From Heterobilharzia americana (taxonomy: Eukaryota; Platyhelminthes; Trematoda; Strigeidida; Schistosomatidae), in contig OX104131.1 in the NCBI GenBank assembly GCA_944470555.2, positions 18,964,515 through 19,028,514 on the forward strand: 64,000 bases of DNA, in the 5' to 3' direction. The position numbers and the translations under genes were made by a program. Numbering within the stretch: position 1 is the first letter of the stretch; the number at the start of each line of letters is the position of its first letter. The notes beneath the pieces were generated by a model that saw only the letters and a list, made by a program, of their open reading frames with translations, made no database searches and was not told the origin of the DNA. Below are positions 1,469 through 59,272 of this stretch, one piece after another.

Positions 1469-1525
1469 TCGTGTCTGTCTCCTGCTCCATGCCGCTTCTC
1501 TCAGTTTCCACAACTGTCGATGTGT
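1469..1525 (-). CDS. Candidate Ser/Thr-rich linker exon 9
   Basis: Acceptor ccatacag followed by an open 57-nt stretch, TSTVVETERSGMEQETDT, ending at a weaker donor gtatct in phase 1. If the donor is not used, the frame runs on through a Thr-rich stretch (ATLTATATPTLTM) to a TGA at about 1398, which could make it the last coding exon. A related stretch at about 7455-7511 has a one-base deletion that breaks the frame. Tentative. Confidence 0.38.
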
Positions 1526-1579
1526 CTGTATGGAGGTGGACGAGAGAAGAGATAGTCAGACGAACACACATGCATGGTG

Positions 1580-2670
1580 GTTACAATCTGCACACACACA
1601 CACGTACACGCACATGTATGCATCCACATATATACGTCTGCATGCATGTGCTAGCTCGAAGGCATGACTGTGGCAACCGCAGTTGAAACAGTTGTTTCTA
1701 CTACCCTAATCACAAGAGATAGAAGCATCATGTAAGATACCATGGACATATTCACTCCTACTCCACCTAAGTATCCCTCGACAAGTACACACCTGGTTCG
1801 ATTATTCCCCGTCATCTCCAATACCTTTCAGCATCCATGAAAATCACGGAGAGCTCACACAATCCTGAAATAATATTTGTCCAACATATCCTACATAATC
1901 CGTTTCATATTGCCTACCAATTCCATTCCTGCTCTAGCTGTTGCCCTGTCACAACCACACTCGGAACAACTCAATCTTCTCGCACATTTCAAATTCTAAT
2001 TCTCAATTCCTAACCTGCATTCCACGAAGCCTGAGACATTGGTGTTTACTATCTCTCTGTTTAGAGACTCTCACTTACATCTCACTTGAATCTCAATTAC
2101 CACTCTCCCTCCTCCTCCCCTCCACCCTCTTCTCCTCTCTCTCTCTCTCCCCTCTCTCCCTCTCTCTCCGTCACTGCTAACTGGCGACATTCACCGATAC
2201 GAGTTATTTATCTCTGGTTGTCGTCATCCAGCATCCTTTCTCATCTCCACGCATCACCTCGAAGGAATTGCTTATTTAACGGTGGTGTCCTGGGTGACAT
2301 GCATACAGCTGTTCATATCTTCAGTGTCCCTAGGTGTGTTCAGCATGAGATACTGAAGAGGAGGGAATTTCGACCACTCTGCTATGCACACATTCAGCTG
2401 AAGATCGAGGAGATTGAGAGACGGCGAACAGAAGAATGTGAAGGAATCAGGAAGAAGCGGTGCTGAGTGTTCGTCAATTTCCAGATGGTCACTTGCACAT
2501 AAGTGTCGGCGTGTCTGCGTGTCTGTGTGTCGGTGTTCAAAATCATAGGATAAGAGTTGAGAGTGAGGAAAGTGGAAAAGCAGGATACCACACTATCGTG
2601 GAAACCATCTCTTCCATGTGAACACATGTTCGACAATATGCAAGAAAACTGTCATTCAGAGAACAAGTTT
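1580..2670. other. Intron-like stretch with CA and CT repeats
   Basis: Holds cacacaca/cacgcac stretches near 1590-1640 and a pyrimidine-rich ctctctct block at about 2104-2170. The part from about 2440 resembles 9360-9520 and belongs to the tandem segment. No exon supported. Confidence 0.5.
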
Positions 2671-2678
2671 CGACCTAC

Positions 2679-2786
2679 CCATAGTTATGGTTGATGCAGT
2701 TGAGGAGAGTGGAGTGGCCTGCTTCGAGACATCGGCGTCACTCTGATGAGAGCTGCTTCGCATCGTTGAAATTCCTGTCGATGAGC
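2679..2786 (-). CDS. Ser/Thr-rich linker exon 8 (module A side)
   Basis: Exon of 108 nt with the same acceptor and donor as the linker at 9531 and no base difference that I can see. It would follow module A exon 2 and so lies downstream of the frameshift. It is the left end of a 1.13-kb block almost identical to 9520-10648. Confidence 0.68.
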
Positions 2787-3002
2787 CTGTTGATAAAGAC
2801 AAATGGAAGCATGACAAACGCATAGAAACACAGAAAGGTGAATGGTATGAATCGATTGGTCATGAGTGAGAATGCATTGCATCTCGACTGGCCATCTGCA
2901 TGAGCACGCCTGTTTCACGACAGAGACACAATGCCTCGAGACGAACACAACGACAACCACAACAACTCAACAGGCCCACGTCCACTGCACTCAAATAAAC
3001 GT

Positions 3003-3034
<32 letters not shown>
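3003..3034. repeat. (CA)n microsatellite
   Basis: About 16 CA units inside the segment A intron; the counterpart in segment B is at 9857-9885 with a different length and one base less before it. Confidence 0.95.
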
Positions 3035-3038
<4 letters not shown>

Positions 3039-3459
3039 GTAGCACACATGATATTGCTCACCAACCACACCACAATGGTGAACAGACCTGCACTACCATT
3101 TGAAAAATTCATTCACAAACATTCATCTGCACACAACCAAGTCGACGAGTAATACCGAGAACTTGTTCATCATCTCCTCTCAGCTCGCTCAACTAAACAA
3201 AGCAAAGCCAATATGTGCTGAGATACACTAGGGGAAAAGCCAACAAGCACGGGTGAGAATGACATCGTCCCACCCACCTGAACAATATATGGAGCGAGCA
3301 ACAATGATTATGCGAAGTAACACGAATCACCAGAGACTGCCAACAGGCAAACCGATGGATGCAGCACACTTCCCACTGTCTGTCCACTACACTGCCAACA
3401 CACCGATTCACACTCACACTCACACTGAAGTACACAGAAAACAATGATCAATGACTCAC

Positions 3460-3738
3460 GGTATGCTGTGATATTTCTCAGACTCGGTCCACTGGTAATA
3501 TTGAGCCTGCTGCAACCACGAACCAGTATGTCAGTCATGTCCACTTGACTCAGCTGTGAAGCTCGTGGTGAATGGAACTGCACACTCAGCATGGCTTGCA
3601 CACCGTCGATCGACACACGATCCACTCCACCTCCACCTCCACTCACATATATCCAGATGAGATTCGAAGGAAGCTGACATGCACACAGCTGGCACCTCGA
3701 GAGACCTCTTCATCACCGATCTGAAGACCCCTGAGTAC
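3460..3738 (-). pseudogene. SEA-like module A, exon 2 (frameshifted)
   Basis: Same splice sites as modules B and C, but 279 nt instead of 280. One base is missing where B and C read cagatgaagattcg on the plus strand (here cagatgagattcg, around 3660). In the frame set by exon 1 this leads to a stop a few codons later, after SGYM. Either the module is dead, the exon is skipped, or the base is an assembly error. The sequence either side is almost identical to B. Confidence 0.7.
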
Positions 3739-4269: not shown

Positions 4270-4400
4270 CAGGTCACAAGACGACATTGACAGGCTCCTG
4301 AACTCGACACTCGACTGATTCAACAGATTGACTGTCCAAGGCATGGGGGTTGACAGCTCCTCAACATAGATGATGACATCCACCTCGAACGATGTGGTCA
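4270..4400 (-). CDS. SEA-like module A, exon 1
   Basis: Exon of 131 nt, acceptor catgtag, donor gtaggt, phase 1 to 0: TSFEVDVIIYVEELSTPMPW, then TVNLLNQSSVEFRSLSMSS and CDL. Intact. Its partner exon 2 at 3460 carries a frameshift, so whether this module is still made is unclear. Confidence 0.73.
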
Positions 4401-10306: not shown

Positions 10307-10586
10307 GGTATGCTGTGATATTTCTCAGACTCGGTCCACTGGTAATATTGAGCCTGCTGCAGCCACGAACCAGTATGTCAGTCATGTCCACTTGACTCAG
10401 CTGTGAAGCTCGTGGTGAATGGAACTGCACACTCAGCATGGCTTGCACACCGTCGATCGACACACGATCCACTCCACCTCCACCTCCACTCACATATATC
10501 CAGATGAAGATTCGAAGGAAGCTGACATGCACACAGCTGGCACCTCGAGAGACCTCTTCATCACCGATCTGAAGACCCCTGAGTAC
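10307..10586 (-). CDS. SEA-like module B, exon 2
   Basis: Exon of 280 nt, acceptor cttccag, donor gtgagt, phase 0 to 1. Same domain content as module C exon 2: a helix-like start, VSFLRIFIWI, a GGGGG turn, the DGVQAMLSVQF strand, the SQVDMTDILV helix, and a closing strand with two sequons. Open throughout and apparently identical to C. The opposite strand is also open over part of it because the sequence is low in stops, but homology to module D exon 2 fixes the coding strand. Confidence 0.77.
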
Positions 10587-11470: not shown

Positions 11471-11601
11471 CAGGTCACAAGACGATATTGACAAGCTCCT
11501 GAACTCGACACTCGACTTATTCAACAGATTGACTGTCCAAGGCATGGGGGTTGACAGCTCCTCAATATAGATGATAACATCCACTTCAAACATTGTGTTC
11601 A
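11471..11601 (-). CDS. SEA-like module B, exon 1
   Basis: Exon of 131 nt, acceptor cttctag, donor gtaggt, phase 1 to 0. It encodes FEVDVIIYIEELSTPMPWTV and LLNKSSVEFRSLSISSCDL. It differs from A by Lys for Gln in the NxS sequon region (NKSS, still a sequon) and a few other changes. It is followed after about 0.9 kb by module B exon 2. Confidence 0.75.
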
Positions 11602-15185: not shown

Positions 15186-15645
15186 ATCACCAGAGACTAC
15201 CAACAGGCAAACCGATGGATGCAGCACACTTCCCACTGTCTGTCCACTACACTGCCAACACACTCGATTCACACTCACACTGAAGTACACAGAAAACAAT
15301 GATCAATGACTCACGGTATGCTGTGATATTTCTCAGACTCGGTCCACTGGTAATATTGAGCCTGCTGCAGCCACGAACCAGTATGTCAGTCATGTCCACT
15401 TGACTCAGCTGTGAAGCTCGTGGTGAATGGAACTGCACACTCAGCATGGCTTGCACACCGTCGATCGACACACGATCCACTCCACCTCCACCTCCACTCA
15501 CATATATCCAGATGAAGATTCGAAGGAAGCTGACATGCACACAGCTGGCACCTCGAGAGACCTCTTCATCACCGATCTGAAGACCCCTGAGTACCTGGAA
15601 GATGGAAGACGAGAGAAGCAAGGACAACAACACAGTCAGTCATGC
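15186..15645. repeat. Tandem segment C conversion patch
   Basis: About 460 bp matching segment B (roughly 10179-10633) almost perfectly, including all 280 bp of SEA exon 2. Left of 15186 and right of 15645 the two segments diverge at once, and linker 6 and SEA exon 1 of module C are clearly different from B. The tract is shorter than the A-B one. Confidence 0.82.
15315..15594 (-). CDS. SEA-like module C, exon 2
   Basis: Exon of 280 nt, acceptor cttccag, donor gtgagt, phase 0 to 1, open throughout. Order: LRGLQIGDEEVSRGASCVHV, a VSFLRIFIWI strand, a Gly run (GGGGG), VDRVSIDGVQAMLSVQFHS, ASQLSQVDMTDILVRG, then LNITSGPSLRNITAY. Two N-glycosylation sequons. Base for base I see no difference from module B exon 2, while the neighbouring exons differ clearly, which suggests recent conversion. 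The GSVVV cleavage motif is replaced by DGVQA. Confidence 0.77.
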
Positions 15646-16120: not shown

Positions 16121-16251
16121 CAGGTCACAAGACGATATTGACAGGCTCCTGAACTCTACACTCGACTGATTCGACAGACTGGGTGTCCAAGGCATGGGGG
16201 TTGACAGCTCCTCAATATAAATGATAACATCCACTTCAAACACTGTGGTCA
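16121..16251 (-). CDS. SEA-like module C, exon 1
   Basis: Exon of 131 nt, acceptor ccttgtag, donor gtaagt, phase 1 to 0. It encodes FEVDVIIYIEELSTPMPW followed by NQSSVEFRSLSISSCDL. It is close to exon 1 of modules A and B (same length and splice sites) but has its own substitutions (TPSLSN where A has TVNLLN). One NQS sequon and one Cys, conserved in A-C but absent from D. Confidence 0.75.
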
Positions 16252-16999
16252 CTACAAGGGTGGAAGAAGAGAGGGAGACAAATCAAGGGATATAAGCATG
16301 ACGGTTTTTGTGACAAATTTTCACTTCTTTCACATACTGAATATCTCATGTGATAATTGATAACGACCTCAAGGTTGTCAATGGTAGCAGCACTTACGCT
16401 TCCGTCAAACAGATTGCTTTAGAAACGACCATTCCGTATCTTGTGGTTCACATTATCTTTGTGAATAAGTGTCATAGTCATAAGGAATGTATTTTCACCA
16501 CTTACTTCTCAGTCGACACTGAATTTGCTACAGTATTCTAGTTGTTGCGCTACTAAAATCAATTCAGCTATCCTGAAACGCTTGACGTTCCTCCTACCTC
16601 TCCTAGTTCCCAGGTGTTTCGCTGTAGCTGTTTGACTATCACCACCTGCAAACGCAGATACATATGGCATCGATAAATTAGCTCGTGTTGATGTATGCAT
16701 GTATGTTAGCTTACTCTTACTGACGGAGTGACTGAAGTTACTTGGATTTCTGCACGTTTTATCAATGCATTTCTTCTCGTGTAGGCCGACTCAATGACTC
16801 ATTATTTCTAGGAGCATGTGAAATAAGTCACTTTACGGCGACTGGCATCTAGGCAAGGGGTAAGAGGAGAATATTTTGCAAACATTTTTATGTATATGAA
16901 CTGTATCCGTCTAGCTGCTGAACTATATACATTGTTAGGTAATTGTAGGTTATCACATTAGTGTTTGTTCGTCATCGTTTGTCGAGGAATTAATGTCTA

Positions 17000-17650
17000 T
17001 TGGACAGGGATTTTGGTTGAGTTCATGGTCAATTCTGAGCCGTGATTATGTTCAAGGCTCACATTTGTGGGGCGACGGCCAAGCCCTCAGCAAGCCTTAC
17101 TGTTTGTGATTTGCTCAGTTTATATACTTTTGAAATTGTCTTATTTCTCGATATCTGCTCTGATCATGCGTCACTCGGATTCCGATTCTCATATTTTATT
17201 ATTGTGTAGCACTCTTTCACTATGCTCCCTTATCATGCGAATTACGTCGTATGATTGCAAATGCGAAGTTCGGTGACGACAGCGATGTGAGTACTAGTAA
17301 TGCTGAGGTGTCTGAGCCTGTTTGTCATACAAGAATGATAATGATCCTTTGATTAGCAACAAATGTTATGATGTTACGTAATTTATGCAACTGAATTACC
17401 AGTTACCTAGATTTTACCGAAACCCATCCCAATTTTATTACTTTAGCGAGGGAGTGGAGGTATTGCATGACAGTCATCCTTGAGGAAAATTTAAGTCAAC
17501 TAGTTGAGGTTTGAAATAATAATAATAATAGTGTTTATAATAATAATGTTGCTAGTTGTTGTACCTTATAAACTATAGAAAAATCCTACATAAACCTTTT
17601 TTTATCATTCGAACTTTACGTCATCAAATAGCAACAATATTATTGTCACC
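17000..17650. other. AT-rich stretch with (AAT)n
   Basis: A short aataataataata run at 17515-17530. No gene or element identified. Confidence 0.5.
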
Positions 17651-17659
17651 AACATGATT

Positions 17660-17852
17660 ATTGTAACGACGGATGGGGGCTTGCAATAAAATCTAAGATG
17701 CGCATTTCATCCTGTTTGGGACTCTCCAGCTGGATGTACTTGTCTCCCAGTGAGTGACGTTGTTCTCACCCGGGATTCGAACTCGTGACTAGTCGCTTCA
17801 AACGCCACAGCGTTACCAACTACGCTACCTAGCCACGATATCCACCTCTTGT
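17660..17852 (-). mobile_element. Sm-alpha-like SINE with degenerate hammerhead
   Basis: Read on the minus strand it has a tRNA-like A box (TAGCGTAGTTGGTAACGC), a B box (GAGTTCGAATCCC), then CATCCAGCTGGAGAGTCCC, a short loop, GGATGAAATGCGCATC. This is the order of the schistosome Sm-alpha elements: internal pol III promoter followed by a hammerhead. The best-preserved promoter among the copies in this window. Confidence 0.8.
17691..17735 (-). ncRNA. Hammerhead ribozyme motif, degenerate
   Basis: Stem II GTCC/GGAT and the GAAA core strand are kept, but the CUGANGA core reads CTGGAGA (A6 changed to G) and helix I is mismatched, so self-cleavage is unlikely. Confidence 0.65.
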
Positions 17853-18063
17853 GTGATGGGTATAGTTTAAGTATTATTACTTTTATTATACTGTCGTTGA
17901 TTGAACCGAATCGATCTGTCTCATTTGGCCTATGGGCTCTCGTACAGAGGCCTCGATATTGCCTGTTTTTTAATTATAGTAATGATAGATGCCGATCAAT
18001 TTGGTCGAGTCAAAGACGGTATAATACAAGTAAAAATGCTACGTCATTATTATTATTATTTCA

Positions 18064-18075
18064 ACCCCGACTATC
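18064..18075. repeat. Target-site duplication of RTE copy 1, left
   Basis: accccgactatc, perfectly repeated at 21487-21498. Confidence 0.88.
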
Positions 18076-18539
18076 TATTATTATTATTATATTATCAGTC
18101 CCTTGGGTTCCTAGTGGAACACAGGGATTCAGTAGCACGTCTCCATTTCATTCTCTTCTCTGAGATCTTTTGAACCTGGTTCCACGACAGACCACAAGCT
18201 CTCATTTCCTCCTCGCACCATCTCCTCCATGTCACCCTTACCACGGACGTCCAACTCGTCGCTTCCCATGGGGATTCCACTCGAGCAACTGGCCTGACGC
18301 GTGATGTCCCCTGACGGCCTTCTCAGTGTATGCCCAATCCATCTCCACTTCCTTCCACCGCATATTTGTTGAGCGATAGGTTCTTGGTTGGTTCGTTGGC
18401 AACCAGCCAGAGTTCCTTGTTGCTTATTTTTACTATTCTGGCCATCTGATCTTCAGTAGCGAGCCAGCGTAAGCAGTTGTTGATGAATGTCTGTAGTTTA
18501 TTGGAAATCCCTTTCATAACGCACCAAGTCTCTGAACCA

Positions 18540-19823
18540 TCACATTGAAGCACTGACTTGACTGACATTGGTGTTAAAAATCCGGATCTTGTTCGGCATG
18601 CTGAGTGCAGAAGATCTCCACACTGGTTTCAGGCTAATGAAAGCCTGTCTTACATTTCCGATTCTGACTTTGACGTCCTCGTCCGTCCTGCCTGTATTTG
18701 AAACAGTGCTTCCTAGATAAGTGAAGGTGGTTACTTCCTTCAAGTTTCTCCCGTTGATGGTGATTGGAGTTTGCTGTTGTTGTTGATGGTGGTGGTGCGG
18801 TATCTTCATCACTTCTGTCTTCTCTATATTCACCTGGAGTCCCGTCTTAGCTGCCTCTTCTATCAACTTGTTAGTTTTTGCCTGTAGATCTTCAAGTTTG
18901 TGTGACATCAGGCACAAGTCATCGTTGGCGAAATCCAGATCTTCTAGGTTCTTTTCCGCAGTCCAGCCAGTGTATCCCCCTCTTCTCACAGCTCCTCACT
19001 GTTTGCTGCATGATCCAGTCTAGTCGACCGCAATCAGGAATATCATGGGTGATAGTAGGCAACCTTGTTTCACTCCTGTCCCCTGTCTTCACTTCAAAAG
19101 CATCACTGAGCTTCCCATTGTGAATTACTTGGCTGGCATATGGCGTCTTCATTTAGTTGTTGAATGAGGCTGATAAGGGTTTGCGGTACTCCGTAGTATT
19201 GAAGCAGTTTCCAAATTACCTCTAGGTCGACGCTGTCAAAGGCCTCCTCAAAGTCGATAAAGTTGAGGTGTAGAGTTGACTGCCATTCTATACTCTGTTC
19301 TATGATGATGCGTAGTGAAGCGTTGCAATTTGGTCTGCACATGATTTGTACTTTCTGAAGCCTGCCTGTTCCGGTCGCAGTTTTGAGTCCAGTGCATCTT
19401 GAAGCCTCTCCAAGATGATGCGGCTTAATATTTTACTTGGGGTGGACAGGAGAGTGATTCCGCGCCAGTTCTTGCAAACACTGAGGTCTCCCTTCTTCGG
19501 CAGTTTGACAAGGTAACCCTTCTTCCAATCAATTGGCAGGTACCTTCTCTTCCTTCCACACCTTCTGCAATAGTGGTGGTGTGAGCATGTCCGCTGCTGT
19601 TGTCTCTGCGTCTGCTCTCAGTGCTTCTGGCGGGATTCCATCTGGTCCTGCTTCCTTCCCACATTTCAGTATCTTTATGGCGTTCAGGACTTCCATTTTC
19701 GTTGGGGAATTTGTGTTCGCTTGAAATTAAGCGGCTGCAGGTGGTATTTCTGGACGAAGTGCAGGTGGTGGTGGTGGTGGTGGTGGTGGTCGATTCAAGA
19801 GCTTCTTGAAGTGGTCGGCCCAT
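18540..19823 (-). pseudogene. RTE copy 1 reverse transcriptase domain, broken
   Basis: Pieces in at least three frames: HLNFIDFEEAFDSVD (motif A, near 19250), a piece shifted by a 5-nt insertion near 19020 that would otherwise read KTGVKQGCLLSPMIF (motif B), and FANDDLCLMSH (motif C, near 18910). A relative at 51.4 kb reads FADDDLCLM, so an Asp has changed to Asn in this catalytic motif. Confidence 0.75.
19767..19791. repeat. (GGT)n expansion inside RTE copy 1
   Basis: About eight GGT units (poly-Thr on the minus frame); copy 2 has only two to three at the same site near 54718. Confidence 0.9.
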
Positions 19824-20860
19824 CGTTTCCTTTGTTTCTCTTCTTTCGTAATTAAATTTCCATCATCATCTTTTATTGGCTTCGTCTGCTTTGATCTCTT
19901 CCCTTTCAGATAGCAACCTGGTTATTTGATACAATGTTGTCAGGTCTCTGTCTCTCCTACCTGCAGCAGCCTGTTCTGCTTCACTTGCCAGTCTTTCGTA
20001 GAAGTGTCTTTTGTCTTTGCGTGCACTCTTCTTCACTTCCTTGTCCAGTGTAGTGTTTTATACATTGTACCCAGTTCCTCTTGTCGTTGAGTATCCTTGC
20101 ACTGCACTGGTTTATCTTCTGCTTCACCATCCTCCTCTCCATGCTCTATCAGCTTCCAGGTATCCGTCCAGATCCATTCCACTCCTTATCTTCTTTCTTC
20201 TTCCTTCCTAATACTGTTGTGCAGGTTTCTTTCCACACAGCTTTCAAAGACTTCCAGTGTTCTTCCACACAGGTTTCTTCAGGGATGTTCCTCGATATCT
20301 CCCATTTTGTCTTGATGGCTGACTGAAGTGAAGATTTCCTTTGTAGTTTCATCCTTCAGTTTCCGACCTGGGTGTTGAACTTGAACTGTGGTCTATCACC
20401 AGCTTCCTTGAAGGCTTTCAACTTGATTTGGAAGGCAGGTTCCTTGCACTAGATAGTGAGTGATATGAACCTACATCTGCTCCTCTTCTTGACCTTGTGT
20501 CAAGTAGACTGCGTCTCCATTTTCTTCACATTGAGATAAAGTCGATTTGATTTTTAGTGTGTCAATCTGGTGAAATCAACTCCATGTCGCTTTGTGGATA
20601 TCCTTGTGCCTAAACACACTGCCTCCAATCACCAAATCGTTGAATGCACAGAATTCTGCAAACAATTCTCCATTCTCGTTCATCACCTCACCGAGCGCTT
20701 CTCGACCCATGGTTAGTTCCCTTCCCGTGTTGTCCCCTCCCAGTTTGGCATTCATGTCACCCCACCCATTAGAATGAGTTTTGATATCGCCAACTGATGT
20801 TGGGTCTTGTCCAGTGTTGATTGAAGTTGTCTGTAGAATTCCTCCTTTTTCTCTTGATCT

Positions 20861-21421
20861 TCAATATTTGTAGGTGCGTAGCCTAGCATTGTATGATTGT
20901 GACCTTCCTTCCTTCCTTTTGAGTTGAACCCGTCTTGCTGTCATGATCCTGCATGAGGAGATTGGTTGCCACTGCATGAGAGCCTTCGATGCTGTTGGGG
21001 ATATCATGATAGCCACTCCAAAACTCAGTGTGCTCGTGGTTGGCGTCTGGGTGACAATATCGGAGTAGATTATTGATTCTCCAGTTGACAGTTTGGAGAG
21101 TCCACTCCCATTCCATCTGATTTCGCAAATCCCAAGCACCTCGATGTTATACCTTCTCATCTCCTTTGCAATCTGGGCTGCCTTACTGGGTTCAAACATC
21201 GTACGGACATTCCATGTCCCCACGTTTACTTTCGCTTTCATCGAGAGAAGACACATCGGCCAATTGGCTTTCCGAAGGCTTTCACCAACTGGCGTCATTT
21301 CGCCTCTCCGATTCCAGCGAGGAATAAGTTTGTTTTCATTTTTTATATTTTGTTTGTGCTTTGAAGTTTGTTTAGCGGTTAGATTTGTTTTACGGGGTAG
21401 GGTTAGTAGCCCTATGCCCAA
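20861..21421 (-). pseudogene. RTE copy 1 endonuclease domain
   Basis: A 186-codon open stretch covering most of the endonuclease. Visible: TWNVRTM (residues about 69-75), CEIRWNGSG (the catalytic Glu context), and the FGVAIMIS strand. The downstream His-containing motif and the link to the RT are lost through frameshifts. Confidence 0.75.
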
Positions 21422-21486
21422 CCTTCCCTCTTTACCCGGGCTTAGGACCGGCTAGTAACTAGTGAACTAGTTAACCAGGCGAGGTT

Positions 21487-21498
21487 ACCCCGACTATC
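21487..21498. repeat. Target-site duplication of RTE copy 1, right
   Basis: accccgactatc, matching 18064-18075. Confidence 0.88.
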
Positions 21499-21499
21499 A

Positions 21500-22060
21500 A
21501 CTTTTGGTTATTGTCATTTTATTCATCTTCGTGGTTGACATTTATTACCCAGCACACTTCTCCCCCCTAATTTATTTAGGGTGAAAGAAATTGGAAATGA
21601 AAAATGATTGGCTGATTCCTCTGTTTAAAAGTCAATGTGTTTGTGTGACCAAGGTATTTTCCTGCTGCACTAGGACACTTACTTGTAGGAATCTGATTAG
21701 TTGACCCTAGGTAACTTATCTGTATTTAGATTGGCTTATAAAGCCATCACTTGTCACATAAATTCTGTTTTAAGAAATTAATCGCCATCAGGTTCAGATT
21801 AAATCCAAAATGGATTTAAAATATGTAGAGAATTAAATTCTGTAGTGACAATGTTGTGTAATATTTCAGGGAACCTGTTTCAAATGTATTGAGAGTAATT
21901 GTTGTTATGGTATTTATGATTCCCCGTTGTTATACATGGCTGAATTGATCGACCTCTGTTGACAGATGGGCTCCTGAGTGGATACCTTGATACTGCTGCC
22001 GATTATTGACGTAACATTGGTCTTGGTGACTAACACAGGACTCCAGGACTGGCGTTTTGT
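21500..22060. other. Gene-free intronic stretch
   Basis: AT-rich, no exon or element recognised. Confidence 0.5.
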
Positions 22061-22074
22061 TCTAATTGGCATTC

Positions 22075-22225
22075 GGTTTAGTGGATAACCCTGTGCCAGT
22101 TCAAGCGATAAGTACCAAGTTCAATCCACAATGGGAACCACATCACTAACCGGGGTGCTGCTACATCCAACCGACGAGTCCCGAGTAGGACGAAGCGCGC
22201 GTCCTGGTAGTCGTCGAGATCAATA
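22075..22225 (+). mobile_element. Sm-alpha-like SINE, 5' part weak, hammerhead visible
   Basis: A B-box-like AAGTTCAATCC at about 22119 is followed by ACATCCAACCGACGAGTCCC and GAGTAGGACGAAGCGCGCG, matching the Sm-alpha order in plus orientation. The A box is poor. Confidence 0.72.
22164..22209 (+). ncRNA. Hammerhead ribozyme motif, degenerate core
   Basis: Perfect stem II (GTCC/GGAC), helix I partly paired (CATCCAA with CTGGTAG). The core reads CCGACGA (U4 to C) and GAAG in place of GAAA, so activity is doubtful. The GCGCGCGTC cleavage context is kept. Confidence 0.68.
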
Positions 22226-22534
22226 TGTACTGAGTGCAATTTACAACTGTAAATGAGGTTTTCAGAGAAATTAATGATCGGAAGTTTATACATAATGATA
22301 AGTTCTTATTTTGGTAATAATTCGAACAAGATTACTACCCGTGATCACTCAAACAGTCGGAATATTTGCTCAATAATTTACTGAAATAAAAGCTCACCAC
22401 TGTTTGTCAACTTTTCATTTAAAATGTACTTATAATCTATTATTCCATTCCACAATACAGAATCTTCTCATCGATGTATTTAAATCCTTGTAGGACTACA
22501 CTGCTAACTGTAATTCTAAGGATAATGTTGGTGA

Positions 22535-23380
22535 GAAACTGATTACTCTGCCTTGATAGTTTTGACCAACATTAAGGTGGTCTTTGAAAACCGGTACCAA
22601 CTGAGTAATCACGTTCATATGGGCAAATTTTACAATGTGGAGTACAACTCGCCATATAGGCATATAATAAAGTACTATATGCAAAGAAATATCCCCTTAG
22701 ACGCATTTAACGTTTCTCTCCGTTGGCTGATGCGGAAGAATTAGCAACACAATGTACCAGTGCAAAACAACAGTCCACAACCAACCACATCCCTCCTTCC
22801 ATCAAGAAACCAACTTTGGATAGTCGTTTTACCATTCTTCAACGGTGAACACCAATTCTGCACTGTCTTTTGGTTTGTAAGGAAAATTTTAGATGGCAGG
22901 ACACCCACTGAGGTAGACACAAGTCCAGAACATCTCACAGGACACAGTGTTTCAAGTGATTCCGGGGAAGAAATGGAAGTGACATCTGTGGCTGTGAGTA
23001 CAATCACGGTGGCAGACGGTGGAAGACCAATAACTCCATTTAATAAAACAATTTAACGGTCACCTATAACAGAAATTACTTATCCAGGAAATAACTTAAC
23101 CTTGGACCCAGACTCCAGTGTCGACCATCAAAGAGGGGCTACGGAGTTGGTTACTGGGAACTCTGAGGAGAGGGACCATGTAGATGTAAACGAAGAGGAG
23201 GATTATATCCGCAGAGGAGTTTATGAGGTATGCTTTCAAAGTGATGCACCAACCTCCATCCCACATGCCAACCCACTAATAGCATGCCATTGTCATGCAA
23301 CATTTCATATATTCTTCGAATACAATCCACACCTGAGCAGCTTTTGTTTAGAATGCCCTGAGTATGAAGGCAACCCCTAG
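22535..23380 (+). pseudogene. Unassigned protein-coding relic, one frame with two stops
   Basis: Three open pieces lie in the same plus frame and are separated only by a TAG at 22742 and a TAA at 23055. The conceptual product has a basic aromatic first part (NVEYNSPYRHIIKYYMQRNI), a proline- and hydrophobic-rich middle (WIVVLPFFNGEHQF), an acidic Ser-rich stretch (SDSGEEMEVTS, NEEEDYIRRG) and a C/H-rich end (ACHCHATFHIFFEYNPH, FCLECPE). I do not recognise it. It could be a transposon ORF or a dead gene; the strand is opposite to the host gene. Confidence 0.4.
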
Positions 23381-23399
23381 CAGGGAGGTAATTTCAATG

Positions 23400-24150
23400 A
23401 AAATTAGAGGGATTTTCATAAAAAACGGGTAATTAGCATCTTTAACTCCTACAGCTGTACCCACCTAACTTTCACATGTTAGATGAAGACGAGCTGCACC
23501 AGAAGTGAATTTCGATTTCATGACGGGAAGCGAACGAACAAAGGCCCTTCTCAGGGCCATCCAAAATGTGATTTGAATGACTTTTTTTGTTCTTTTAAAT
23601 AAATCAGAAGTGATTATCCATGTTTAACTACTTCAGTTATCAACCGAATGAATGTAATACAGAATCGAAGATTGTTAACTTCTTAACAATGATAACTACC
23701 TATTATGTAGCTAAGGTTCAGACAATTGAAAAGCGTATATACCCATCAAAAGCTCTTTGAACAGGTGAAAGATAAAGTCACGTTCTATTGTGTTTATCCA
23801 TTTAAATGTATGTGTGGTCAGATATAGCTAATAGTAGCTACAAGTGATCCCATTAATTAACCTTCAATCTTGATGCATATCAGTTAAAAATATCTAAGCA
23901 AATATCCAAATATATGGAGAGATGATTGTTTAAAAAATATCGCATGGGATGATTGTGAGTTAACAGCCACCGAGTTACTGTCCAGAAACTTTCTAAGAAC
24001 TTCACGAGCATGAATGCTCGACAAGAACATTTCAGGGATATTCTACGAAATATATGATTAAAACACACTGGACTGACCTTCTTGTCACTACACTACCTAT
24101 TGACTGGTGTTCACTAGACTTAAAGCGAAAAAACTTGACATAAGCTCTTC
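23400..24150. other. Gene-free intronic stretch
   Basis: No exon or element recognised. Confidence 0.45.
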
Positions 24151-24160
24151 GGCAACCTTT

Positions 24161-24415: not shown

Positions 24416-24609
24416 TTCGACTGGACACCATGTGACACGCAGTGACGGAAAAGGGGTAGAAAATAACAGTTAAAAAATCATTACTATGGACTGAATGTAT
24501 TCCCATCTCTATTGTTAACTTGACCTTGAACACTATCTTCTCACCTGTCGAACAATTATTTTCGTACCCTTCAACTTCTTAATCTTTCACGTAAATGACA
24601 ACTGAAGAC

Positions 24610-24830: not shown

Positions 24831-25019
24831 TGAATACTACTTCTAAATTAAAATCCCGATTCATCTCAGAAACACTCGTGTTAATCTTGTTGTTTTGTCA
24901 AAATTTATAAATGGAACTATTTGTTTCAAATAACTCGGTATTTCAGTTGAGGTTTTGTGGGGATTCATTGATTTCAACCTGGTAGATGTGAGGACAAATA
25001 CTCGACGATGGCACCAATT

Positions 25020-26169: not shown

Positions 26170-28480
26170 TGAAACAAGTGGAAATCCAGTAGATATTATA
26201 ACTATCTGTCAGTCATTATTAGAGAAATATTTAAAGAAACCTTTTCGGTGACATGAGATTTTTCTCAGCAAGACACTAATTTTCGCCGTATTGTATAAAG
26301 ATTTAAAGAGGAAGGCTAGATAGTATGAAAATATACTCTGACTGATGACTGGAGAGTAATCCACTCCATTTTACCTGGTTCTAGGGGCTGATGGAATTCT
26401 ATTGAGTTTTTCGTAATATGGTCACCAGATTACAAGAGGCAGCATCACAGTGCCGTCCAGTCGATGTTAGTGTGTTAATTTGACAATGTTATATAGCAGC
26501 CTTTTGAGAATGGCTAAGTGTACGTTTATCACTCGGTATCGATATCTACACTCTTTGTAGAACTGCATAAAGTTGTGTCTTTACGCAGACTTCAACTTTT
26601 TATGAAATGGAGCTATTAAGGAGGTAGAATTAAGGGGCTGGAAGGCAGTACTAAATGATGCTTGGATGCAATTACGGTATTACAGGAAACCAGCTCATGA
26701 AATATAGTCACGCTTTGATTCTCAAATCTAGCATTTCTCTACACTACGCATGAAATAATGGAATCTTTTGACTTCTACACGATTAAAGTGTTTTCTTACC
26801 CACGCCTTGTGAGACATGGAAGGTGGGTTTGACTCATGTACAGGTGGATATACAGACACGAATCCACTGGTTTTCAGGGCACATCACTTTTATGAATAGC
26901 TCTGTAGACTTGCTTTGTTTGGATATTTGTGTTTAAGTGAATCCAGATGAGTAGTATACAAGCCATTAATATGTTTTCCTGCTTGTTATTTACTGAAGTG
27001 AGATAGTCAATCATTGTTCGCCTTTAATTAAATCATCTAAACGTATGCCTCAACTTCCTTTAGAAATGGAATATGTGGGTGATCGGTGTCTATCGTAACA
27101 CTCGCTTCACTGTAGCTTCAAACTTCTCTCCAATTAGATAATACTTTGTCACCTGGACATTGACAACTAACTGAAAACCAGTTGTTACGTTCAGATGGAT
27201 GCTCTACCAACTAAACTATGAAACCCAACAGTTGATCAAAATCCTAATTCCACTTCAATACATAGTGTGAACAGATGAGATGAGGTATATTTAACCGCCT
27301 CCTGGTATTTACTAATTAATCAGTTGAAGGGGAAACTTGCGTACTTATCTTCATCACCATCTTCATTGTCTCTGTATCAACAACAACGCACAATCTGGAT
27401 TGATTCGATTTACTACCATTTTCATCACCATTGTTACTAACATTCATTTCTATTTAACTTCAATAAATTATTGAGAACTTCACTAATATGAATTCATTGC
27501 CAACGTACCAACAGAAATGACAAATATATCGATCCTATATGCCCTAACGCACTAACATATGACAGTATCGAACGATTACACTGCCACCGATGATCACTTT
27601 TGTCCCCTATTTTTAATGAAGGAGAGTATGAATATCAATACGCACAGAGGCACGCATCACCCTACAAGAGACATACAATTTCGCAATAAAAATGAGAAGA
27701 GGATATAAAAAGACGACTAAGTTCACATATTTGATATTTTAATTTAATTCTTTTCTTGCCGGAGGTGGGATTAGATTTTCGTGTGACATGTTACAACTAT
27801 TTTAATTCATATGCACCGAGACTAATACGGATATATTTAGTATCTCAGTTAGGAGCTTTGTGTGAACTGATTGGTTTCTGTGTTATTCATCACGGCTGAA
27901 ATCAGGCATATCTTATGTCAACCTTTCATTCAGTACCGAATATTTGTGATACTATCCTCTCAAATTGTGAGCTACTTGATCCCGATTCAGTCATCCTGCT
28001 GTAACTTGCTCTACACAAGGCTTAGTGATCCTAATTTCGATCCCTCATTGTTCCATTGGCCAGCATTCCCAGCAGGTCTCAAACTAGGTGGAAGAGCTGT
28101 ACATCGCTCTTATTATTTGTACAATGTCAGTCATTTGAAATAAAGAAACCATACATAAATATACTCACAAAAATAAAACATCAATTTATAAATTCTTACG
28201 ATGCGCTTCAATATTCACAAGTGCCAATAAATATAGGCCACCAATTTTATTGTAACCAGAATTCAAAACAGCTGTGAGTAGAGTATCATTCAAATTGAAA
28301 GAGGCTGCCACACGAATGGACATGATGGTAGTTGCTTCAATGGCTTTAGTAATCTCATGTTTTGGTAAATGTGCAGATACATTTTGCAAGTGAATTATTT
28401 TATTGATAATTTTAAAGTTGACAGTGTTGCATTCAGCTTCTTTTTGATAGAAGAAGCTCCAAATCTCTTCATCCTTCGAA
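26170..28480. other. Intronic stretch, mostly gene-free
   Basis: Apart from the tRNA-like piece at 27.1 kb I see no exon or element. A B-box-like ATTTCGATCCC near 28033 stands alone. Confidence 0.45.
27125..27240 (-). mobile_element. Possible tRNA-like SINE 5' half
   Basis: Minus strand has ATAGTTTAGTTGGTAGAGC followed by ATCCATCTGAACG, like a tRNA A-box region, but no hammerhead follows. Tentative. Confidence 0.35.
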
Positions 28481-30240
28481 TGCTTCTACAGCGATGAGAA
28501 ATAAAAGTAAGCATTGACAAAAAACTGTTCTGAAACAATTACTCCCTTTAGTAAATTTCGGTAACGCTATTAGAAGACGAAGATTATCTGAAAAATGTGA
28601 TGTGTATTTGCGCAATACATTTCGAACAATCTGATCACACATTTACTTGTCATGTCAATTTATATATGAAAATAAAAGGTCAAATATAGTGAATATGAAA
28701 AGGTTGTGACACTAGTCTAGATAATATAATCAGATAAGGATTACCAAGGTAAATTAAGTGAAACCACAAATTGTTTTTGTACACACAGTGGGGGATTAAG
28801 TTTACGAATGGCTAACGCTTCGGCAAACTTCAGTATGCGCCCCTGATTATTCCTGTATATTATCTTAAACGCTGTTTTCGTATTAACCCTATGATTCATT
28901 TCAATAATATGTTTTGCTATAGATGACGATGGATGTCTGTCACCTGCACTTATCAAAGTTTGTGTGTTAAACTGTTTTTCTAGCCATTTGGGGATGTGTT
29001 CACCCACCCTAGTCTGCACTGAACGATTACTCCTCCCTATGTATGTACGTATTCACTGAAAGATACGTTGGAACTTGTTGATTATCTTACGGATTTGAAT
29101 ATTAAAAATAAGAAAATGTATTCTTTTGATGTTAACTCTCTGTTTACAAATGTGCCTCTAACGAAGAAAATTAATATTCTTTGTGACCACATATCTTCGA
29201 ATTATCCTTCTTTCCCTATTCCTTCACCTTATTTGAAAGAACTGTTTTTATTATGTACTGATAAGATTCATTTCACTTTCGAAGGTGAACACTTTCGGCA
29301 AATTGATGGTGTAGCCATGGGGAGTCCATTAGGACCGTTATTAGCTGACGTATATATGTCACATACTGAACTAATGGCCCAAGATCTAATCACCAATGTC
29401 ACACTCTATAGAAGGTATGTGGATGATATCTTTGTAATATGTGACACAGATGAGGATGCCAAGAGGTTATTAAAAAGGCTTAATACCGTACAAGATCATA
29501 TCAATCTGACATGTGAGGAAGAAAAAGACCATCAACTTGCATTTCTTGATATACTGTTGTGCCGGAGGGAAGATGGATCTATAAAACGATCAATACATAG
29601 GAAGTCTACTTGGACAGGACAGTATCTGAATTTCCATAGTTTTTGTCCGATGAAATATAAGAGAGGCTTGGTAAGATGCTTGTTCAATAGAATCCAACGT
29701 ATTTGTACATCTGATACGATGGATGATGAGAATAAGTTTCTGACAGACACTCTAGTGGAAAATGGTTATCCATTACAGTTTGTCAACCATTGTAAAAAAC
29801 AGTTGATCCCAAAGCCTACAGTTTCCTCGGTCCCGAAGAAAAGCATATTTCTTAAAATACCATACAGTGGGGAAACAAGTAGTATGATATTGAAGCAGAG
29901 ATTAAAATCTGTTATCAGTAAAACATACTATGCAGCTCAGCTTATCATTGTTGAGACGACAAAACACCTGCTACACCACAAACCTCAACCTCGCACAAAT
30001 GATTACATCACATCCTACTGCGTTTACCAATTTACATGTATGTGTGGGCACACATACATAGGGAGGAGTAATCGTTCAATGCAGACTAGGGTGGGTGAAC
30101 ACATCCCCAAATGGCTAGAAAAACAGTTTAACACACAAACTTTGATAAGTGCAGGTGACAGACATCCATCGTCATCTATAGCAAAACATATTATTGAAAT
30201 GAATCACAGGGTTAATACGAAAACAGCGTTTAAGATCAAA
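28480..30240. mobile_element. Penelope-like element P1, inverted/rearranged copy
   Basis: Two parts face away from each other around 29052. Left part (minus, about 28480-29052): the 3' end of the ORF from the YIG motif to the stop plus the terminal repeat. Right part (plus, 29053-30235): RT from just before motif A through the GIY-YIG start, ending abruptly at the TAFKI codons. About 190 bp of coding sequence (HTYIG to TAFKI) is present in both parts. This could come from twin priming during insertion or from the inverted-end arrangement often seen in PLEs. No target-site duplication was recognised. Confidence 0.82.
28741..29052 (-). pseudogene. PLE P1: inverted GIY-YIG C-terminal part
   Basis: Starts inside the YIGRSNRSMQTRVGEH region, continues SSSIAKHIIEMNHRVNTK and ends FAEALAIRKLNPPLCVQK, VVSLNLPW, stop. 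The end resembles that of P2 (KTAEALAIHELRPDLCVQKK). This supplies the C-terminus missing from the plus-strand part. Confidence 0.85.
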
Positions 30241-36592: not shown

Positions 36593-36697
36593 CTTTGTTT
36601 TACAATCATTGAAGGCTTTGTTCTTTCTTTCTTCATTAAGCATATGATAAACATAATGTTTGAGAAGATGATATCCTTCACGCAAACTTTTATTGAT
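36593..36697 (-). CDS. Candidate orphan exon, function unknown
   Basis: 105 nt between a strong polypyrimidine acceptor (ttttcttttcttcaag) and a strong donor (gtatgt). Read in phase 0 it gives LREGYHLLKHYVYHMLNEER and a Lys-rich tail; another frame is also open and hydrophobic. It lies in the linker 4-5 intron on the same strand, but its 0-0 phase does not fit the chain. It might be an alternative or nested-gene exon. I do not recognise the family. Confidence 0.3.
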
Positions 36698-36899: not shown

Positions 36900-39030
36900 T
36901 ATGTTCATGGTGAGTATTAGGGGAGTCCTAAGTAGACGAACATCAATGATTCGCCAATAAACGTCTACAAACATCAATACCTGTTGCTGAGCCTTAAGCT
37001 GTGAACTATAATTAGCAATGTGATAACTTGAGTGAAGATTTGGATGAAACTGTCCTACGTAGCCAGACTGGTTTATTAAGGAGGCTCCAAATATGCTAAC
37101 TTTTAAAAATGCAAGTTTCTTTCATCTTGGAACTCGAGATCATTTCTGACTCTTCTAGTCAGCCACTGATTGGCGAAAAATATGATGCCTGACTACGGAT
37201 TATCCGAATTTCACTACTTCCTGTACTTCCAAGTGATTTGATTGCTTCTTTGTAGAATCACCTAAGTGGTCCAGTTGGCAGACTTCATGCTTTCCCTCTA
37301 AAATTTTATGCATTAGGCAACGGTGCACTTGTGTGTATGTCTTTTTAAAAATTACTCACTTAAGTAGGGTATGATTTTGTTCAAATGGACTGTTTTACTT
37401 ATGGAATTTTCCCTCTCTCTGCCTGGTCTTACTATGAATGACACAGTCACAATTTAATTCTTATCAGATGTTATGGTGATGTTAGGTGAGGGTGCTGATT
37501 AAGTCCAGAGTTTCCTAAACGCCTTAAGTGGCAGCTTTTGTGTGTTTGGCATGCATTTATCAGAATCTAGATGTAAATTGCTGCTCCTGAACTGATCTGG
37601 GCCGTTGTCTTGTATAACGAAAGGGAGTGAAGTGATTAAGCGTGCTGGCCATCTTACTCACTTAAAGAGTCGGACTAGTCCTATGAATCAGTGACCGACA
37701 AAATCTCCAAACAGTCACAAAAGTCTCAAACTAATTTCCTGTCTGGTTTCGCCATGATATTACAGTTTGCAGCGGTTTACTCTGTTCCACTATGTGGCTG
37801 TGAAATATGGCCATCAAGTGTAGAGGATATGAGAAAGCTTAAGATGTTCGACTGCTGTTACCTTCGTAGTACTAGCGGTGTATCGTTCAGTAGAAATCCG
37901 GTGTAGATTTCTATACGAAAGTGGTCGATGATTATATGGGTTTTCATTGACTTTACTGACTAGACATAGACATCACATGTCCTAGTCATCTTCAGTGCCA
38001 TCTCACAATACTAAGTGGAGTAGGATTTGACTGGGAAATATTAGTTGTCGTCCGACTGCAACATGGTGTCTGCCCATGAAATATTTCATGTTGATCTCAG
38101 TCATGTTAAAAGGTTGCTGACCTTCTGGATGGCGTCTACCTGGTTATAGGACTTAGAATCGACCTGGGTGCTCATATGTATGTATCCACATACTCTCATC
38201 ACTTAAATCATCGCAACTAAATCCCTCATCGTGTTATAACATTTGTTTTCTGGCGACTGACATTCAGTAACTTCGAATGCTTTCTTCTTTATTTCCTCAT
38301 TTTTCTTATGTGTACCTTCTACCTTAATGTGTTCAAATGATGAGTTGCAGCCTGAACTGATACACAATAACACCACGTCCAGTGTTGATGATGACTGACT
38401 GCCATGCTCAGTGTAATGATTCTAGAAGCCTTTAACCTAAGATGAATAAACGAATATAGGTATTCAAAAATGTCGACATTTACGAAATTTAAAGAGAATT
38501 ATTCAACTGGTAAACTGTGGACTCGCTAAACTTTCAAGGTTTCAATGAGAATGAATGTTGATATTTGATTGTAATATGCTGTGGACGGTGCGCTGACTAA
38601 ACCTCCGGTCAGTAATCGCTTGAGTAGGTCTATAAAGTCAGTTAAAGGAAGAATTACTTTTCATAAATTTATTCACATAATATGATTGTGCCTATAATTT
38701 AGCTTTATCGTGTGGAGAAAAACAATACTTACTATGTTACAAAATGATTTCCCCATTTTCTTGTACAGATATGATAATGGACTATTCAGATATTGCATAA
38801 ACTTCAATGGGGTTGACAGTAGTTTATGATGTATTGTGGCTTTGACTTCAAAGTTGATGATTACTTGGAATTAGAGCAGAAATCAATGGATAAATGTAGG
38901 AAAATGGTTCAGACTTAGGTAGATATAGAAAAAGAGAATTTTGTTTCAGGTTACTTTAGTTCTCATGACGCAAGGCATTTTATGTTTGAGAAAAATTAGG
39001 TGTTGATATGCACCACAACCAATAACTGTA
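36900..39030. other. Intronic stretch, otherwise gene-free
   Basis: Only the retroelement relic at 37.7 kb is recognised. Confidence 0.45.
37690..37920 (+). mobile_element. Non-LTR retrotransposon 3' coding relic
   Basis: A 71-codon frame with VYSVPLCGCEIWPSSVEDMR followed by KLKMFDCCYLRS. This corresponds to the VLLYGCETWPLR-EDVRRL-VFDH-CLRS block found after the RT in trematode non-LTR elements. Flanks are unrecognisable. Confidence 0.6.

Positions 39031-49594: not shown

Positions 49595-49660
<66 letters not shown>
49595..49660. repeat. (TA)n microsatellite beside SEA module D exon 2
   Basis: 33 uninterrupted AT/TA units in the intron 25 bp past the exon's splice donor. Confidence 0.97.
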
Positions 49661-49685: not shown

Positions 49686-49941
49686 AGGAAAACTGAATGT
49701 CAACTAAAGCTGATCCAAGGGTTACATTGAGTTTCTTCCATCCTTCAGTCAAAACAGTTGTGATCTCACCATCACTTAACTTTGAAGCCTTTAATGATCC
49801 AAATTCCAGTGTGATCGTCACCATAACACCTTGTGTTACATTTGTGAAATTAGGCTGGATAGGAACTTTTCTGAATGTGACATTGAGAATATCAAAAGCC
49901 AGTGAAATTTCTGAATCTTGTAGTTGTAGACTTCTTGAAAC
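49686..49941 (-). CDS. SEA-like module D, exon 2
   Basis: Exon of 256 nt, acceptor ataacag, donor gtaagt, phase 0 to 1, fully open. It encodes the second half of the domain: VSRSLQLQDSEISLAF, ILNVTFRKV, a strand GVMVTITLEF, then KLSDGEITTVLTEGW and LNVTLGSALVDIQFS. Four N-X-S/T sequons are visible. It aligns with exon 2 of modules A-C around the strand, the S--AS-LS--DMT-IL segment and the closing LN(V/I)T-G--L--I. In cleaving SEA domains the strand carries G-S-V-V-V; here it reads GVMV, without the Ser nucleophile, so self-cleavage is not expected. A long TA repeat starts 25 bases beyond the donor. Confidence 0.78.
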
Positions 49942-56831: not shown

Positions 56832-56962
56832 CTGGAAAATAAGTCCTGATACTAAATTTTTGTGAAGTGCACTTGAACTATCTGCTATATCTTCTGACCA
56901 ATTCAGTGGTACGAAATTTTCTGCTGTATAAACCAATGCTTTCATTTGACCGACAACAGCTT
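56832..56962 (-). CDS. SEA-like module D, exon 1
   Basis: Exon of 131 nt, acceptor ttttcag, donor gtatgt, phase 1 to 0. It encodes the first part of a SEA-like fold: AVVGQMKALVYTAENF, then LNWSEDIADSSSALHKNL, then a hydrophobic VSGLIFQ. The pattern (a beta strand, a Trp in a WSED context, D-SS, then an amphipathic helix) aligns with exon 1 of modules A-C, which have the same length and phases although the sequence is diverged. One N-glycosylation sequon (NWS). It continues into exon 2 at 49.7 kb, across an intron holding an RTE copy and PLE fragments. Confidence 0.75.
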
Positions 56963-56969
56963 CTGAAAA

Positions 56970-57960
56970 TCAATTGAAACAGAAATCCAAAACAGGGACG
57001 GACTTTATCATAAAGGCAACAGCTTAATTCTTGGGTGATGAATGAAACTCTATGGCATTCCAGTCAATTTGAACACATATCCATACTGAATATAACAAAG
57101 ATCATGAAACATATTTCAGCTTGAAGTAGCAGCATATTCAACTTTTAATTTTCTGATTAATATCAAACAGAAATCGTTAGGATAGCGCTATTAAAGGGTT
57201 CAGTGCAAAACCTTCGAAATAATAAGACATAAATATTTATTTACCATGTTGACCCAGAAGATATTATAATAACGGTGTGAAGTAGTGGCCATGCCAAAAA
57301 TAGATGGGGACTTTACCGGAAGAAACTGTCTGTTACTTACCGGAATTGAATCAGACTAATAAACTAGATAACCATTCAGCTCATATAAGAACAAATTATG
57401 ACGTGAGTGCGACTCATGAAATACAAAGGAGGGTTGTTTTTTCTATTCAGTGATCCTTCGAAGCCGTGATAAGAATAAGTTTCGTATTTACTTTCAATCT
57501 ACTACAGTGTCTGACGGAAGAAATTGAGCAATCTGTTCATCATATTTAATTACGTAAGAGAGAAACACCGTAAAGAGATACTTAGACCCCACAGTGGGTA
57601 CAAGGAGTGATCACTAGTGTAAACCAAAGAAGTATCTGGCTGAACAGTATTAAAGGATTTACTGGATGGAAGAAAGCTGTGACTGTAGGAATACTTTTCT
57701 TTTTCTGATGGTAAATAAAATCGAATTACTGTTAGTGAATTTTCTCCAAAATATAATCTATCACAATTACTCACTTTTTCCCTTAAACTTTGAATGCATA
57801 TACTTATTTCTTACTGAAATATGTTCTACAGAACTATTCATCAAGATATTATGTGACATGTACCAAATTAAACATTTTACATTAGATGACAAACACTGAA
57901 ACCCTCATTTCTTGGATAAAAGTAGGCAAGAAACAAATACATATGTATCCCTTCAGATAA
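56970..57960. other. Intron between module D exon 1 and linker 2
   Basis: No element or further exon recognised. Confidence 0.5.
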
Positions 57961-57966
57961 ACTTAC

Positions 57967-58131
57967 TGTCACCTATTGGTGGCAAGGTACTTTCAGAGTA
58001 CAGCCATGCGAAGTTATCATCATCCGTTACATGCACTGCAGGTGTAGACGATCTGGTTGCAATTGTGTTCATATCAATTTTTGTAAGTATATCTGTTTCT
58101 TTTTCAAACAAGGTTGCTGTTTCGATGATTC
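57967..58131 (-). CDS. Ser/Thr-rich linker exon 2 (1-1 phase)
   Basis: Exon of 165 nt with acceptor atcatag and donor gtaagt, 54 open codons. It is Thr-rich in its first half (IIETATLF, MNTIATRSSTPAV), has an acidic VTDDD patch and ends in STLPPIGD. Joined to linker 1 it makes a Gly codon across the junction. It precedes SEA-like module D by about 1 kb. It has no cysteines, which fits an extended linker rather than a folded domain. Confidence 0.7.
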
Positions 58132-58139
58132 CTATGATT

Positions 58140-59125
58140 AAAGAGGAAAACAAGAAGTACAGTTGACTTCAACTCCATTTGTGTAAAAGAAAACGTCTTA
58201 GTGACCAGGCTCAGTGAAAAACTAATGTTGCTGCATATAAGTATACTAAAGTTTTAAATATCTTGCTTTCAGGAGGCTGTTTAAATAATATTTTCTGGGT
58301 AACATTCATTAACAATGATCTCTACTTAGAAGTTCATGACAATTAAGTAAATGACACAAATGTAACCAGCATATAATTTGTGTATCGTGTAGTATAAAGA
58401 AACAGCGGATTACTGTTTGACACAGTGAAGTATCATGTTCACCATTACACTTCTAACGACTACCTAGAATTCGTAAACCTGATACCGCACAAGTCATAAA
58501 GTAGATTTGATAATTTCTCTACAGCATGGTTTTTCAAACTATCGTATATCTGTACTTTGACATCCCTCAAAATCCATCGTCAGACCACTCCGTTAATAAA
58601 CACAGTGAAGCAAAATTGCTGGAGATTAGGAAATATTAATGTTTGGTGTCTGTCATTATTGCAGCAGCATACCTATTTTAAAACAGATGAAATCTTAGTG
58701 GATTACCTCCTTCCAACTGAATCAAAGACTGTCAACACCAACATCACGCTACAAGTTTATTTCAAATATGTAGAGGTTATATGTACCAAGTAATTTTTAA
58801 ATAATGCACAGATATGGGAGTCAGTGAAAGGTGTAAGTCATGGTAGGTTGGAAATGGTGTTTGAATATGATTGGAAGTGGGAGATTTGTGATCGGTGATG
58901 TGTGGCTAGCTCGTGTGACCTGTTCAATTCGTGAGTGTTTGTGTGCTTGAAACTGTCTAAATGTGTGTGTGCTTCTCAGTGTGCATATCTGTATGCCTGC
59001 ATGCTTGAATGACAGTGCAATTGTGTGAATTTGTGTGCGAGATGGTGATATGCAGGTGGGTGGTTTCGAGCTGACCAGGTGTGCACTGATGATGGCAAAT
59101 AGTGATTGCAGGAAAGGAAGCTGAA
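58140..59125. other. Intron between linkers 2 and 1
   Basis: From about 58.9 kb it turns GT/TG-rich (gtgtgtgtg-like patches). No exon recognised. Confidence 0.5.
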
Positions 59126-59131
59126 ACTCAC

Positions 59132-59272
59132 CCGTAAGCGTCGATGACTCCAACACTCCGTTTGTTGTCGTCGTGGTGTCGACGTCGTATGGTGTGGAAG
59201 TGGTCAGGTCAGACGGAGTATGCTGACTGGTTTCACTGTGTGACGGGATGAGGGTGGACGTTGAGGCGACAC
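59132..59272 (-). CDS. Ser/Thr-rich linker exon 1 (1-1 phase)
   Basis: Exon of 141 nt bounded by acceptor ttaacag and donor gtgagt, open for 46 codons in the only frame without a stop. About half the residues are Ser or Thr, including a DLTTST run and a TTTT run, as expected of an O-glycosylated mucin stalk. It starts with two bases and ends with one base of split codons, so it matches the other linkers. It is the most upstream exon I can support. No ATG with a signal peptide was found just upstream, so an earlier exon is likely. Confidence 0.68.

Follow-up and report, generated by a model that had tools for sequence, protein, structure and literature searches.

A candidate modular glycoprotein gene with SEA-like modules and phase 1 linker exons in Heterobilharzia americana

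The exon chain and its public protein model

The window analysed here, a 64,000-nucleotide stretch of contig OX104131.1 from the schistosomatid trematode Heterobilharzia americana (assembly GCA_944470555.2, positions 18,964,515 to 19,028,514), contains 19 candidate exons, all on the minus strand, which lie within about 58 kb (1469..59272) and range from 60 to 286 nt in size. They make up five related modules, A to E, and eight Ser/Thr-rich linkers, L1 to L8, and most likely represent a lineage-specific mucin-like glycoprotein gene. A single phase plan is obeyed by 18 of the 19, with exon 2 of module C as the exception, and all five modules are headed by a first exon of 131 nt that is entered in phase 1 and left in phase 0. 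The first-pass annotation, made from the sequence alone, had described four two-exon modules with such an invariant first exon. The modular chain is real and the 131-nt exon was found in A, B, C and D, but there are five modules rather than four, the fifth (E) carries the same first exon within a three-exon arrangement, and exon 2 of C is off frame.

In minus-strand order, the chain begins with linker L1 (59132..59272, phase 1-1), in which Ser, Thr and Pro together (S+T+P) make up a fraction of 0.57 and whose pyrimidine tract translates in frame into a hydrophobic segment with no ATG. Module D follows with exon 1 at 56832..56962 (131 nt, phase 1-0) and exon 2 at 49686..49941 (256 nt, phase 0-1), then the phase 1-1 linkers L2 (45055..45153) and L3 (43299..43406), then module E with exon 1 at 38733..38863 (131 nt, phase 1-0), a middle exon at 36593..36697 (105 nt, phase 0-0) and a last exon at 28200..28485 (286 nt, phase 0-1), and the phase 1-1 linker L4 (26070..26165). 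Further downstream lie module A (exon 1, 16121..16251, 131 nt; exon 2, 15315..15594, 280 nt), the phase 1-1 linker L5 (14707..14808), module B (exon 1, 11471..11601, 131 nt; exon 2, 10307..10586, 280 nt, with all 93 codons the same as in exon 2 of A), the phase 1-1 linker L6 (9531..9638), module C (exon 1, 4270..4400, 131 nt; exon 2 homologue, 3460..3738, 279 nt, frame lost), linker L7 (2679..2786), whose codons are the same as those of L6, and L8 (1469..1528). The last is equally possible as a linker or as the start of a terminal exon, being readable past 1469 and still Ser/Thr-rich up to a stop some 80 nt beyond, near 1390; read-through to this stop would terminate a secreted protein.

A single chain joining in frame for about 2.16 kb had been claimed. 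Joined from L1 to L6 with the middle exon of E left out, 14 exons are free of stops over 759 codons (2,280 nt), but the open chain does not extend to module C, which is out of frame and, together with L7 and L8, lies outside the joined model. N-glycosylation sequons are present in modules D, E, A and B.

The joined exon model matched a 445-aa unnamed Heterobilharzia americana protein, here called P0001, which contains both exons of D, L2, L3, the first and last exons of E, and L4 with identical borders, amounting to 7 of the 14 chain exons and including two of the 131-nt first exons (D and E). The additional 105-nt middle exon of E was recognised through P0001. The symmetric modular units proposed at first sight, phase 1-1 and accompanied by Ser/Thr/Pro-rich linkers, were borne out, in a gene that P0001 identifies as schistosomatid. 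Outside exon junctions, P0001 differs from the window at three residues, and the two probably stem from different haplotypes or isolates of the same or a very close species. P0001 was the sole match in the protein searches, which relied on 5-residue words in common and on similar length, and partly covered only the best ~8,000 candidates, so that distant relatives can be missed.

The exons were located by different routes. Exon 1 of A, B and C was found via repeats and alignment and exon 1 of E via tblastn, and a profile built from these four pointed to exon 1 of D at E 0.1, where the borders then proved to be AG/GT and the length 131 nt. For L1 and modules A-C, which lie outside P0001, the basis is splice sites, phase and exon conservation.

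Two other readings of the exons were rejected. A mini-intron within exon 2 of A and B would start at an internal GTGAGT 93 nt in, and the one acceptor viewed by eye has the wrong phase. Micro-exon genes consist of many very short symmetric exons of ~6-36 nt, and the candidate exons are too long for a schistosome gene of this kind.

The S+T+P fraction of L1-L8 is 0.34-0.57, and the phase 1-1 Ser/Thr linker exons, of which eight or nine had been counted, are confirmed, with eight labelled here. A scan for Ser/Thr-rich exons of ~75-160 nt with phase 1-1 and YAG/GT borders, for which the thresholds were set after the linkers had first been viewed and the lower length limit excluded L8, returned nine loci on the minus strand (seven of them in the chain) versus one on the plus strand; the chance level in 100 first-order Markov simulations was 0.7 on average and 4 at most. 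The two minus-strand loci off the chain fall at 63222-63103 and at 22991-22833. The second (22833-22991, minus strand), a further Ser/Thr-rich candidate of phase 1-1, lies between L4 and exon 1 of A and matches no module pattern. Between B and C, the segment 7442-7585 is a copy of the L8 region 1455-1599 with 85.5% identity, degenerate and out of frame.

Relations among the modules and to the SEA domain

The five modules are homologous to varying degrees. D was aligned with A by BLASTP over 129 columns with 26% identity (E 3e-15) and E with A over 48 residues (E 3e-6), both values being E-values of single comparisons. In whole-window searches, exon 2 of D alone retrieved exon 2 of A (E 6e-9), and exon 1 of C retrieved exon 1 of E (E 0.003). 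The relationship of D to A-C, asserted in the first-pass annotation, is upheld by these matches, and the most divergent module is E.

The same annotation called the modules SEA-like domains, of which a weak pooled profile match remains. Against a SEA profile of six sequences (MUC1, three MUC16 and two TMPRSS-type), the combined modules D+A+B+E scored 23.1 (E 0.0032), as high as none of 100 shuffles, and the reversed profile gave 12.5. The score of D+A+B was reached by 2 of 100 shuffles and that of E alone by none of 100. The alignments to the SEA profile are collinear, over 82 columns for D+A+B+E and 93 columns for D+A+B. In a smaller first test with four SEA rows, 0/200 shuffles reached the local score and 5/200 the global score. 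A low-confidence AlphaFold model of exon 2 of D showed the element order strand, strand, helix, strand, which agrees with the C-terminal half of SEA.

Other results weigh against a SEA assignment. The hhalign probability of the D+A+B+E match was 10%, a weak match, and in single-module tests the score was reached by 12/100 shuffles for D and 31/100 for A. No Pfam SEA match (PF01390) was obtained for the exon pieces, joined A, joined B, E without its middle exon, joined D or P0001 (containing D together with complete E), while a self-composed generic SEA consensus used as positive control was detected at E 2e-32. Neither the module alignment nor D found a match among PDB sequences. AlphaFold applied to P0001 yielded a mean pLDDT of 30.7, or 36.0 with five window exons aligned, both too poor to use. 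Since the Pfam and PDB searches fail, the profile tests are mixed and AlphaFold is uninformative, the modules are termed SEA-like rather than SEA, and the assignment is unproven.

It is somewhat unlikely, though a serious alternative, that the modules are an unrelated lineage-specific alpha/beta domain. The empty Pfam and PDB sequence searches and the weak, inconsistent single-module scores would fit such a domain, as would the absence of the GSVVV motif from the four-row module alignment, where the corresponding residues are GVMV in D and GVQA in A and B. The G-SVVV autocleavage motif is lacking in some SEA domains. Against an unrelated domain stand the collinearity of the pooled modules with the SEA profile, at scores that so few shuffles attained, and the element order in the model of exon 2 of D.

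Recent history of the array and the extent of the gene

Exon 2 of A and exon 2 of B show 0/279 differences, and a B-C tract of 1,137 bp is 99.0% identical, with an adjoining upstream block at 74%. Such near-identity of the exon 2 tracts among A, B and C suggests recent duplication or gene conversion. Internal duplication is what is seen at the locus, and the "exon-shuffling design" read into it earlier is not supported in the sense of shuffling between different genes.

Exon 1 identity among A, B and C is 0.90-0.92, and that of the 60 nt on either side is 0.32-0.57 in gap-free comparison. Gapped windows beside exon 1 gave 0.50-0.63 for A versus B, and blastn found 84% identity over a 239-nt block overrunning both ends of exon 1. 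As the gap-free comparison lowers flank identity, the contrast between exon 1 and its flanks holds but is less marked than the gap-free figures suggest. The dN/dS values of the exon 1 pairs among A, B and C are 0.67, 0.46 and 0.41; with 10 to 13 changes, the counts are too small for these values to carry weight.

The same strand, compatible phase and shared module plan favour a single gene running from L1 to L8, for which the odds over two genes appear somewhat better than even. Several observations speak against it. P0001 begins past L1 and stops past L4, so that A-C are absent from it, and the GC content of the candidate exons is 0.44-0.56 in L1 and A-C versus 0.29-0.39 in D, E and L2-L4. 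Exon 2 of module C has 279 nt versus 280 in A and B and runs into stops; the units flanking C are phase 1-1, so skipping of C would preserve the frame. A simple minus-strand scan, which can miss exons, looked for hydrophobic exons that open with ATG and end in phase 1; its five rows fall at three places, 42.6, 13.0 and 11.9 kb, and neither the region upstream of L1 nor that between L4 and exon 1 of A yielded a signal-peptide exon. A similarly simple scan of the regions 1-3400 and 16300-26000, likewise able to miss exons, found no transmembrane (TM)-like exon, and in the joined model the 19-residue segment of highest hydrophobicity has a mean of only 1.43 (Kyte-Doolittle). The 5' end of the gene may lie beyond the window, and the gene may run past it.

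A less probable arrangement is that of two adjacent genes, the D-E gene of P0001 and, distinct from it but related, a gene or gene remnant holding A-C. It is favoured by the end of P0001 only 12-13 residues beyond L4, by the unlike GC content of the two blocks and by the lack of any public protein with A-C in the protein searches. The common strand and module plan and the phase-compatible passage from L4 to exon 1 of A argue against it, as do the simple scans, which found no phase 1 signal-peptide or TM-like exon between L4 and exon 1 of A, because a signal-peptide exon would be expected if A-C formed an exported gene of their own. By eye, the last exon of P0001 also has a weak-looking acceptor. 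The first exon of P0001 itself (57859-57776) and its last exon (from 25958 down) have no resemblance to the other exons, and both may be prediction errors.

It is improbable that A-C are a decaying array of pseudo-exons with expression limited to D-L4, which would account for the lost frames in exon 2 of C and in the linker copy at 7.5 kb and for the missing protein coverage of A-C, but A and B are fully open, exon 1 is better conserved than its flanks, and the dN/dS values of its few changes lie at 0.41-0.67.

The proposed glycoprotein and known systems

Weighing these alternatives, we give about an even chance to a Heterobilharzia gene encoding a secreted or surface glycoprotein of SEA-like modules and O-glycan-bearing linkers, transcribed as one unit from L1 to L8. 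Compact SEA-like modules of ~128-173 residues each would alternate with short Ser/Thr/Pro-rich linkers, and the linkers would bear O-glycans. Every module and linker begins and ends in phase 1, so that the addition, loss or skipping of a unit would keep the frame, the broken module C excepted. Internal duplication would have enlarged the array, and the near-identity of the exon 2 tracts in A, B and C would go back to recent duplication or to gene conversion. From the symmetric phases and the recent near-identical copies, length variation between transcripts or worms by module skipping or duplication may be inferred.

Each theme of this plan is known from other systems, and the plan is a combination of those seen in a Schistosoma japonicum SEA family, MUC16, Muc13 and SmPoMuc. 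The S. japonicum SjCP3842 family is described as exported and placed in SEA by structure modelling, with glycan and heme binding reported (PMC3886910); its authors report that they found no sequence homologue elsewhere, and O-glycans were detected (PMC3886910, PMC3434034). At one locus of the SjCP family, a pair of similar exons is reported to occur in five tandem repeats (PMC3434034). Compared by description only, the likeness lies in the schistosome lineage, an exported family placed in SEA and tandem exon repeats; the S. japonicum family differs, in the accounts given there, in having one common extracellular domain of ~120 residues and a signal sequence that its members share, with two of its products being 271 and 274 residues long.

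In human MUC16 (CA125), SEA repeats are described as separated by unstructured Pro/Ser/Thr-rich linkers (PMC10829539). The design here, with five related modules and eight linkers, resembles that mucin as it is described, but the modules are only SEA-like, the profile similarity is weak and no TM segment was found in the regions scanned; a relationship is unproven. Chicken Muc13 is reported to have a Ser/Thr/Pro region of many exons with one repeat unit per exon and possible length control by splicing (PMC1552070), and is thus alike in carrying Ser/Thr/Pro units on separate exons; it differs in that, as far as that account describes it, SEA, EGF and a transmembrane segment occur with no chain of many SEA units (PMC1552070).

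In the SmPoMuc polymorphic mucins of Schistosoma mansoni, exons are described as duplicated in tandem and transcripts as variable (PMC2576457). They share with the present locus a schistosome gene with tandemly duplicated exons, and differ in a repeated exon of 27 bp and in that the parts of PMC2576457 considered here describe no SEA-like module. The same source also reports an intron-coded hammerhead in SmPoMuc genes (PMC2576457). In the window, Rfam identified type I hammerhead ribozymes at 17691-17735 (minus strand) and 22165-22208 (plus strand), the former on the sense strand of the putative intron between L4 and exon 1 of A.

It is a tentative idea, and a rather doubtful one, that a schistosome lineage independently built a MUC16-like glycoprotein of beads and linkers from its own fast-evolving SEA-like module, with all units in phase 1, the module number free to change and conversion now homogenising the exon 2 copies. 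If transcripts span all units, the locus would encode a long modular glycoprotein of the parasite surface or secretion, built from a domain whose sole relative in the protein searches is one H. americana protein and whose repeats are near-identical in DNA. It would then make a good case for the growth of fast-evolving host-facing proteins by in-frame modules, and would allow a test of whether the SEA-type modules of S. japonicum belong to a wider schistosome family. A literature search on Heterobilharzia together with mucin returned, judging by the entries listed, nothing about this gene.

Other elements occupy the putative introns and the remaining sequence. Two reverse transcriptase open reading frames (ORFs; RVT_1), at 29026-30363 and 32009-33655 (both plus strand), lie between the middle and last exons of E, and both appear Penelope-like by eye with a GIY-YIG-like tail. 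Two apparent copies of a non-long-terminal-repeat (non-LTR) retroelement at 18.1-21.5 kb and 53.0-56.4 kb (minus strand), 91-99% identical in the segments listed, occupy the introns between L4 and exon 1 of A and between exons 1 and 2 of D; the first holds RVT_1 and endonuclease pieces, both below the Pfam cut-off. A match to the histone 3' untranslated region (UTR) stem-loop was recorded at 23538-23583 (plus strand) with 35.2 bits versus a threshold of 34 bits, and a perfect (AT)33 run at 49595-49660 follows shortly after the donor of exon 2 of D.

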